From: Amphiura filiformis
Taxonomy: Eukaryota; Echinodermata; Ophiuroidea; Amphilepidida; Amphiuridae
Assembly (NCBI RefSeq): GCF_039555335.1
Contig: NC_092639.1
Span: forward strand, 35,445,293 to 35,509,292
Direction of reading: 5' to 3'
Length of the DNA: 64,000 nucleotides
Shown: one piece after another, positions 27,701-30,700 of the stretch
Position numbering within the stretch: position 1 is the first letter of the stretch
How the letters are laid out: each line of letters starts with the position of its first letter
Program-made: the position numbers and the translations under genes
Notes under the pieces: model-generated
Seen by the model: the letters and a program-made list of their open reading frames with translations, nothing else
Database searches by the model: none
Told to the model about the DNA's origin: nothing

Positions 27701-30700
27701 TTTGGTGGAAAGCAGGTGGAAAGAGTTCCAATCTGGGGGGGGGGGTCCTGTCCCCACATTATACACAAACTTGAAATGACTTCTCAATTCCTGAGTCTCA
27801 AGCCAGTAAACATCAGTAGAAGTGTGACCTGGGCATGTGACCTATATGATTTGAATACCAATTTCATCAATTTGTCCAGAACAGGTTTTCATAATGCTAG
27901 TATACGTTAACATTAAATTACAGTATTTCTACGTCAGACATAATGCTAGTATTCATTAACATTGAAGTACAGTATTTCTACTTAATAATGCTAGTATTCA
28001 TTAACATTAAATTACAGTATTTCTACTTCATAATGCTAGTATTCATTAACATTAAATTACAGTATTTCTACTTCATAATGCTAGTATTCATTAACATTGA
28101 AGTACAGTATTTCTACTTCATAATGCTAGTATTCATTAACATTAAATTACAGTATTTCTACTTCATAATGCTAGTATTCATTAACATTAAATTACAGTAT
28201 TTCTACTTCATAATGCTAGTATTCATTGTCATTGAATTACAGTATTTCTACTTCATAATGCTATTATTTATTAACATTAAATTACAGTATTTCTACTTCA
28301 TAATGCTAGTATTCATTGTCATTGAATTACAGTATTTCTACTTCATAATGCTAGTATTCATTAACATTAAATTACAGTATTTCTACTTCATAATGCTAGT
28401 ATTCATTAACATTAAATTACAGTATTTCTACTTCATAATGCTAGTATTCATTAACATTAAATTACAGTATTTCTACTTCATAATGCTAGTATTCATTAAC
28501 ATTAAATTACAGTATTTCTACTTCATAATGCTAGTATTCATTAACATTAAATTACAGTATTTCTACTTCATAATGCTAGTATTCATTGTCATTGAATTAC
28601 AGTATTTCTACTTCATAATGCTATTATTTATTAACATTAAATTACAGTATTTCTACTTCATAATGCTAGTATTCATTGTCATTAAATTACAGTATTTTTA
28701 CTTCATAATGCTAGTATTCATTAACATTAAATTACAGTATTTCTACTTCATAATGCTAGTATTCATTGTCATTAAATTACAGTATTTTTACTTCATAATG
28801 CTAGTATTCATTAACATTAAATTACAGTATTTCTACTTCATAATGCTAGTATTCATTAACATTAAATTACAGTATTTCTATGTCATAATGCTAGTATTCA
28901 TTAACATTGAAGTACAGTATTTCTACTTCATAATGCTAGTATTCATTAACATTGAATTACAGTATTTCTACTTCATAATGCTAGTATTCATTAACATTAA
29001 ATTACAGTATTTCTACTTCATAATGCTAGTATTCATTAACATTAAATTACAGTATTTCTACTTCATAATGCTAGTATTCATTGTCATTAAATTACAGTAT
29101 TTTTACTTCATAATGCTAGTATTCATTAACATTAAATTACAGTATTTCTACTTCATAATGCTAGTATTCATTGTCATTAAATTACAGTATTTCTACTTCA
29201 TAATGCTAGTATTCATTAACATTAAATTACAGTATTTCTACTTCATAATGCTAGTATTCATTAACATTAAATTACAGTATTTCTACTTCATAATGCTAGT
29301 ATTCATTGTCATTAAATTACAGTATTTTTACTTCATAATGCTAGTATTCATTAACATTAAATTACAGTATTTCTACTTCATAATGCTAGTATTCATTAAC
29401 ATTGAATTACAGTATTTCTACTTCATAATGCTAGTATTCATTAACATTGAATTACAGTATTTCTACTTCATAATGCTAGTATTCATTAACATTGAATTAC
29501 AGTATTTCTACTTCATAATGCTAGTATTCATTAACATTGAATTACAGTATTTCTACTTCATAATGCTAGTATTCATTAACATTGAATTACAGTATTTCTA
29601 CTTCATAATGCTAGTATTCATTAACATTGAATTACAGTATTTCTACTTCATAATGCTAGTATTCATTAACATTCAAATTACAGTATCTCTACTTCATAAT
29701 GCTAGTATTCATTGTCATTGAATTACAGTATTTCTACAGCATCAAACAGATAGTCATTGGAGGGCGCTGTTTCTGTAATGGCCATGCGAGTTCTTGCCGT
29801 CCGCGTGGTGATGGTCTTATGCATTGTGACTGTGAACACAGCACATGTGGTGCTGCTTGTGATAGATGTTGTCCTGGATTTATGCAGTATAGGTGGAGAG
29901 AGTCTTTATTTGGAAGGCCATTTGTGTGTGGAGGTATGTACAGTATGAGGGGTGTGGAGTGTGTTGGAAAATGCTTTTCAATACAGAGTAAAGGGTAACC
30001 TTGAAGAAACATCATCCGAGCAGCAGTATTCATGTCCCATTGACAAGCGTTTCCAACGATTACTCACTCTTCTATGATGGTATGATGACAGGGGCACTCT
30101 GGATCAAACCTTTCCACCAGATCAAACTAGCCAAAGCCAGAGCAGAGATGAATCAGCTGATATTTTGCTTTTAGAGAATCTTCATGAAGTAACAGATTAG
30201 GTCATAATTACACCTGTATAGAAAATTGCTTGCGTTCTGCGGAGTATCATCTATGTCTATTAATTCAGTGGCATAGGGGCATATGGGGAAAGGGGCAAGT
30301 GTCTACCCCCAATCGATTTAAAAATTAAGAAAATCCCATAGGAAAATTGTCAAAAAATGGTTTGTGCCCCCAATCAGGTGTGGTGCCCCCTTCCTCATAG
30401 GATGATACATGCTACGCCACTGTGTTAAGTAGGGATACATTACAGGTTCATAGGAACTGGTAATTACAAGACGTCTCGTAATTCATAGACCGTCTAGTAA
30501 TTACAAGACGTCTTGTAATTACCAGTTCCTACGAACCTGATTAAGTAAGAGGGCACAGTGGTACAGGGCTCTGAATCATGATTGTGTAAAGGTTGTGGGT
30601 TCGAAGCCCAGCGGTACCACTAATTGAGTTGTGCACTTAGACTAGGTACTTAACTTGATTGTCTCTCTTTACCCAGGCGTATAAATGGGTACCTACATAT

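Follow-up and report, generated by a model that had tools for sequence, protein, structure and literature searches.

A large mirage-type tandem array of intron-exon junction units in intron 3 of a laminin-like gene

We identified, at the end of intron 3 of a laminin-like gene, a tandem array of 41 units (27888..29737, forward strand), each resembling the junction between that intron and exon 4, and the last of them holding the junction of the gene model itself. The array lies in a stretch of 64,000 nucleotides, the whole of the DNA analysed, which is referred to here as the window. We regard the array, with a probability of roughly 0.78, as a new, large intronic minisatellite of the mirage type, of which the acceptor adjacent to the exon is used and the remaining copies are removed with the intron.

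The gene was modelled on the forward strand from the coding part of exon 1, beginning with ATG (18364..18777), through exon 2 (20534..20770) and exon 3 (27104..27244, with a phase 0 end and the donor gtaagg), all three encoding parts of a laminin N-terminal (LN) domain, to exon 4 (29729..29933, donor gtatgt), which holds the end of that domain and the first laminin-type EGF. Exon 5 (34556..34765) encodes laminin-type EGF sequence, exon 6 (36264..36525) laminin-type EGF sequence and the start of a laminin G region, and exon 7 (37640..37829, donor gtaagt) laminin G. Joined, the seven exons give 553 codons with no stop. Exons 1-4 together matched the laminin N-terminal domain PF00055 with 202.2 bits (cut-off 25.9; 1.1e-59), with laminin alpha-5 being the best solved relative (2y38, 1.4e-89), followed by laminin alpha-1 and netrin-1. 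The reading frames of exons 4, 5 and 6 contain laminin-type EGFs, and exon 7 has a Pfam laminin G match; the match to laminin alpha-1 (2jd4, query 18-102) extends back into exon 6. With the part at 36264-37829, the model has LN, laminin-type EGFs and laminin G in direct succession. Classical laminin alpha chains have a long EGF and coiled-coil region between their LN and G domains; on the sequence as modelled, the gene may instead encode a laminin-like protein that is short.

The preliminary description of this DNA had set the start of exon 4 at 29729, where a Tyr-Phe-Tyr join was to give the expected ending of the LN domain, and both phase and homology fit. The start agrees with the phase 0 end of exon 3, the resulting junction R|YFYSIK aligns with RRYYYSIK in laminin alpha-5 and alpha-1 and with YFYAV in netrin-1, and the LN profile match runs to its last position (233/233). 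The exon 5/6 boundary of human LAMA2, which we take to lie after Arg273, would match the R|Y boundary found here. In the part of the published account available, LAMA2 c.812C>T (p.T271I) is located in exon 5, and c.818G>A (p.Arg273Lys) is also named. Compared with laminin alpha-5, some 8 residues are missing from exon 3 directly before the exon 4 junction, and, given this shortfall, a small exon may have been missed there. A search of intron 3 for a few motifs of an exon supplying these residues found none, and a search by splice sites and peptides under score thresholds left one candidate at 27803-27823 (PVNISRS), which was weak (score 4) and was not believed.

Other features were also detected in the window. 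Intron 4 carries a non-LTR retrotransposon-like sequence (31223-34074, reverse strand) with endonuclease and reverse transcriptase matches, which is probably broken, because the matches fall in two overlapping frames. A transposase fragment at 48198-48755 on the reverse strand matched Pfam Transposase_1 (PF01359, 6.8e-14) and is presumably mariner-like, and a rhodopsin-type 7TM receptor occupies a single open frame at 59045-60058 on the same strand (PF00001 at 3.8e-31). The window gave no Rfam match at gathering score and no tRNA with ARAGORN.

Tandem Repeats Finder (TRF) reported one head-to-tail array at 27888-29737, with a period of 45, 41.0 copies and 94% matches. When the array was cut at its acceptors, 39 units had a length of 45 bp; the exceptions were unit 2, with 49 bp, and unit 40, with 46 bp. 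The standard unit is composed of 36 bp of intron end and 9 bp of exon start. An acceptor-like site, TACAG|TAT, is present in each of the 41 units, as are TACAGTAT and, at the corresponding position, AG, which upholds the earlier observation of about 41 tandem copies of a genuine-looking 3′ splice junction beside the exon. In 32 of the units the 16-mer ATTACAGTATTTCTAC occurs without change, and in the remaining 9 it differs at one position. With as many as 3 mismatches allowed, it was matched 43 times in the window, against 1.17 expected, and none of 100 shuffles reached 43; outside the array, 2 more such matches were found in the window, while a 21-mer of the unit had no match elsewhere in it. 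The last 9 bases of the unit, TATTTCTAC, are exact in 35 of the 41 units and are the first three codons of exon 4. These codons had been said to sit in the last unit, and the exon start at 29729 indeed falls within unit 41 (29693..29737, forward strand), the unit of the gene-model junction, with its AG at 29727-29728.

The units belong to 13 variants in irregular order, the commonest being represented by 16 copies. Mean identity among the 39 units of 45 bp is 95.7% (minimum 86.7%), and near and far units hardly differ (96.1% vs 95.7%). Unit 41 is identical over its 45 bp to units 8, 10 and 16. Unit 40 (29647..29692, forward strand), whose own acceptor leads to an exon start at 29684, has, compared with the commonest unit, a C inserted and a T replaced by C. 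Blocks of units recur (DDFG at units 6 and 14, DDHD at units 25 and 30), which would fit block duplication and, for this one haplotype, would be compatible with length instability. Long tandem arrays are often misassembled, and one lancelet mirage was wrongly assembled in a genome draft, according to the part of PMC3087553 available; an assembly or sequencing artefact might likewise have inflated the copy number here or made the frame break in unit 40. The 13 variants and their irregular order argue against it, as does the nature of unit 40, in which the inserted C and the T-to-C change are no homopolymer slip, and we find an artefact quite improbable.

Acceptors were compared with matrices that, like those for donors, are approximate. 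On this approximate scale the acceptors of exons 2, 3, 5, 6 and 7 scored 8.4, 5.3, 8.0, 4.0 and 3.3, respectively, unit 41 scored 2.4, unit 40 scored 1.5 and the commonest unit -0.7. The 2.4 of unit 41, as approximate as the rest, is shared with units 8, 10 and 16 and is higher than in the other 37 units; it is the best among the last 25 units, the nearest unit of equal score lying 1,126 bp upstream. Pyrimidines at -20 to -5 number 10/16 in unit 41 and in exons 2, 3 and 7, 12/16 in exons 5 and 6, and 9/16 in units 33, 39 and 40, so that this count (9-10/16 in units) does not tell the units apart from exons 2, 3 and 7. The length from acceptor to donor ranges from 205 nt for unit 41 up to 2010 nt for unit 1. 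Exon definition favours nearby acceptors, and the near units should thus be favoured, with the exon being as short as 205 nt. Since units 8, 10 and 16 have the same sequence as unit 41, the true site cannot be told by anything within the unit, and acceptor choice must depend on the exon or on position.

Two acceptors inside exon 4 were tried and rejected. The AG 11 nt inside the exon (exon start 29740) scored 5.6 against 2.4 for 29729 with the approximate matrix, yet it is out of frame after exon 3; it remains a caveat. The later CAG (exon start 29750), raised earlier as a possible alternative site, was disfavoured both by its lower score (-1.1 vs 2.4, approximate matrix) and by a shortened LN match, which reached 187.8 bits and ended at position 212, compared with 202.2 bits and position 233/233 for 29729.

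It had further been proposed that, from a proximal acceptor, the rest of the array reads through in frame with no stops, giving a ladder of in-frame isoforms with 15 residues added per unit. This proposal failed on unit 40. Because that unit is 46 bp long, the frames entered at the acceptors of units 2-39 (38/41) are shifted by it and end in unit 41 at a TGA (29719..29721, forward strand; the position was shown for units 16, 30 and 39), while the frame of unit 1 closes by itself after 11 codons. An open path into exon 4 exists from units 40 and 41 alone. This rules the ladder out for this haplotype, in which 38 of 40 acceptors upstream have lost the frame and one longer product is left. It would come from the unit 40 acceptor (exon start 29684), the only in-frame alternative, with an insert of 15 residues, a hydrophobic 15-mer next to the conserved YFY motif, which lowers the PF00055 score no further than from 202.2 to 195.8 bits, so that this product stays compatible with the profile. 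The array also forms a 606-codon open frame (27901-29721) that gene callers could take for a gene; among the 8 stop-to-stop frames of at least 150 aa in the window it ranks second in length. When the bases of the consensus unit were shuffled 20,000 times, a given frame was open in 29% of the shuffles and one or more of the three frames in 72%, so an open frame through the rest of the array is unremarkable.

We infer from the short exon, the score and the dead-end frames of nearly all the others that splicing would pick unit 41. Perhaps some array acceptors are used productively instead, yielding length-variable LN isoforms. Such use could draw on the AG kept in 41/41 units, on yTnAy motifs near -18 and -33 in the five units inspected for them (4, 8, 34, 40 and 41), on the pyrimidine count that fails to separate units from exons 2, 3 and 7, and on the in-frame unit 40 product that still matches PF00055. 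In the human gene set of De Grassi and Ciccarelli, moreover, 66% of intron modifications also had a repeat-keeping transcript, as stated in the accessible part of PMC2812944. The 38 out-of-frame acceptors and the early stop of unit 1 count against productive use, as do the -0.7 of the commonest unit against 3.3-8.4 for exons 2, 3, 5, 6 and 7 (approximate matrix) and the fact that the sole possible insert is a hydrophobic 15-mer placed by the conserved YFY. We consider it very unlikely.

The stops met from units 1-39, together with the basic acceptor elements in the units, would also suit poison acceptors, at which some transcripts are spliced, stopped and degraded, the length of the array tuning the amount of protein. 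This too is unlikely in our judgement, as the acceptor scores of the units are weak with the approximate matrix, and the published mirages are reportedly without aberrant mRNA in what could be seen of PMC3087553 and PMC3902484. A length-dependent splice rheostat can be pictured as well, where the acceptor of exon 4 faces competition from 40 decoys, 39 of which give a premature stop, the copy number sets the amount of productive mRNA and unit 40 supplies a +15-residue isoform; we give it little probability. Removal of the whole array by splicing is most likely, and proteins of different lengths are less likely than that.

In the same gene, a second mirage-type array of 139-bp units was detected (37840..38927, forward strand), its source being the 3′ portion of exon 7 together with the beginning of intron 7. 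TRF gave 7.8 copies of the 139-bp unit. In exon 7 the match of the units begins at about 37716, and it continues into the first part of intron 7, with an identity of 68-80%. Internal deletions in the units remove the GTAAGT donor, and GTAAGT is absent from 37831 to 39078. A separate copy of the exon 7/intron 7 junction, at 39154..39217 (forward strand), is 92% identical over 64 bp and has kept GTAAGT. One gene holds two junction-derived arrays of opposite polarity, one from the acceptor junction of exon 4 and the other from the donor junction of exon 7, which suggests a tendency of this genome's junctions to be duplicated in this way.

The placement of 14 arrays (15 TRF rows, two of which are one array) was compared with 13 modelled junctions. 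Two of the 14 had an edge within 15 bp of a junction (P = 0.014, 20,000 random placements; the 15-bp limit was set after the data were seen). One array overlapping a junction was not significant (P = 0.48), nor were two arrays either overlapping or lying within 15 bp of one (P = 0.14). By placement, then, one overlapping array in 14 is not rare, and TATTTCTAC is pyrimidine-rich, like intron ends; the 45-bp array could accordingly be viewed as an ordinary intronic minisatellite that ends at the exon by coincidence, its likeness to exon 4 being due to chance or to convergence on acceptor-like sequence. However, the periodicity enters conserved coding sequence for 9 bases and then ends, and the second array of the gene is plainly exon-derived, by its identity to exon 7 and its flank. 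We find coincidence a distinctly improbable explanation.

A 71-bp array at 34804-34979 lies 39 bp past the end of exon 5 and shows inverted similarity to the adjoining intron, with no exon sequence. It was considered as a third mirage and rejected: exon 5 with 60-bp flanks matched it by the intron flank only, and the best matches were inverted.

Mirage minisatellites have been described in lancelets, in Adh3, the globins BflGb6 and BflGb9, troponin C and PGBD5 (PMC3087553, PMC3902484), the last two genes having been added by PMC3902484; in the portions of these papers available, the hosts are cephalochordates. They are reported there at both 3′ and 5′ junctions, that of BflGb9 being a duplicated 3′ boundary of exon 2 (PMC3087553). 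Many units retain AG/GT signals as potential cryptic splice sites (PMC3087553), and regular splicing is apparently undisturbed, no aberrant mRNA being reported in the text seen (PMC3087553, PMC3902484). The lengths of mirages are described as unstable, and such repeats were proposed as a source of new introns (PMC3087553). The part available of PMC2632668, on lancelet VCBP genes, makes no mention of mirages. Like the lancelet mirages, the array in intron 3 consists of head-to-tail repeats, its unit spans an intron-exon junction, it adjoins the authentic junction, and splice signals are kept in many of its units (AG in 41/41 here; the donor of the second array is lost). The array has all four of these features. 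It differs from the BflGb6 mirage, for which 6 and 3 units of 150-160 bp are given in two haplotypes in the accessible text, by its 41 units and its 9 bp of exon. Its anatomy matches that of the published mirages, so it is not new in kind; the individual array is new.

Internal tandem repeats at exon-intron boundaries are also known from human genes in segmental duplications (De Grassi and Ciccarelli 2009, PMC2812944). As far as the available text goes, they resemble the present case in being tandem repeats at such a boundary with a bearing on splice structure, and differ in that they vary between recent paralogs and are said to create new introns, whereas here an existing intron carries the array. 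The array can be compared as well with NAGNAG acceptors, in which several AGs stand before one exon; here, unlike in NAGNAG acceptors, whole acceptor modules recur at 45-bp spacing, nearly all of them out of frame. NAGNAG and other tandem alternative acceptors have several AGs upstream of one exon.

Laminin alpha-5, alpha-1 and netrin-1 have YYY or YFY at the place of the YFY codons, so it is likely that the array was copied from the exon, and the intron 3/exon 4 junction was probably its seed. A 45-bp stretch across that junction, with 36 bp of intron end and the first 9 coding bases, would have been duplicated in tandem, the duplicated intron end carrying branch-point-like motifs and the AG. 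Slippage or unequal exchange may then have expanded it to 41 copies, the copy that touches exon 4 keeping the working acceptor. The upstream copies, lying within intron 3, would normally leave together with the intron, and those used by mistake would lead mostly to mRNAs with a premature stop.

The locus offers a natural test of how the spliceosome chooses one acceptor among dozens that are nearly identical. Duplication of the mirage type is a proposed route to new introns, and if the host is not a lancelet, mirages extend beyond the published lancelet cases.
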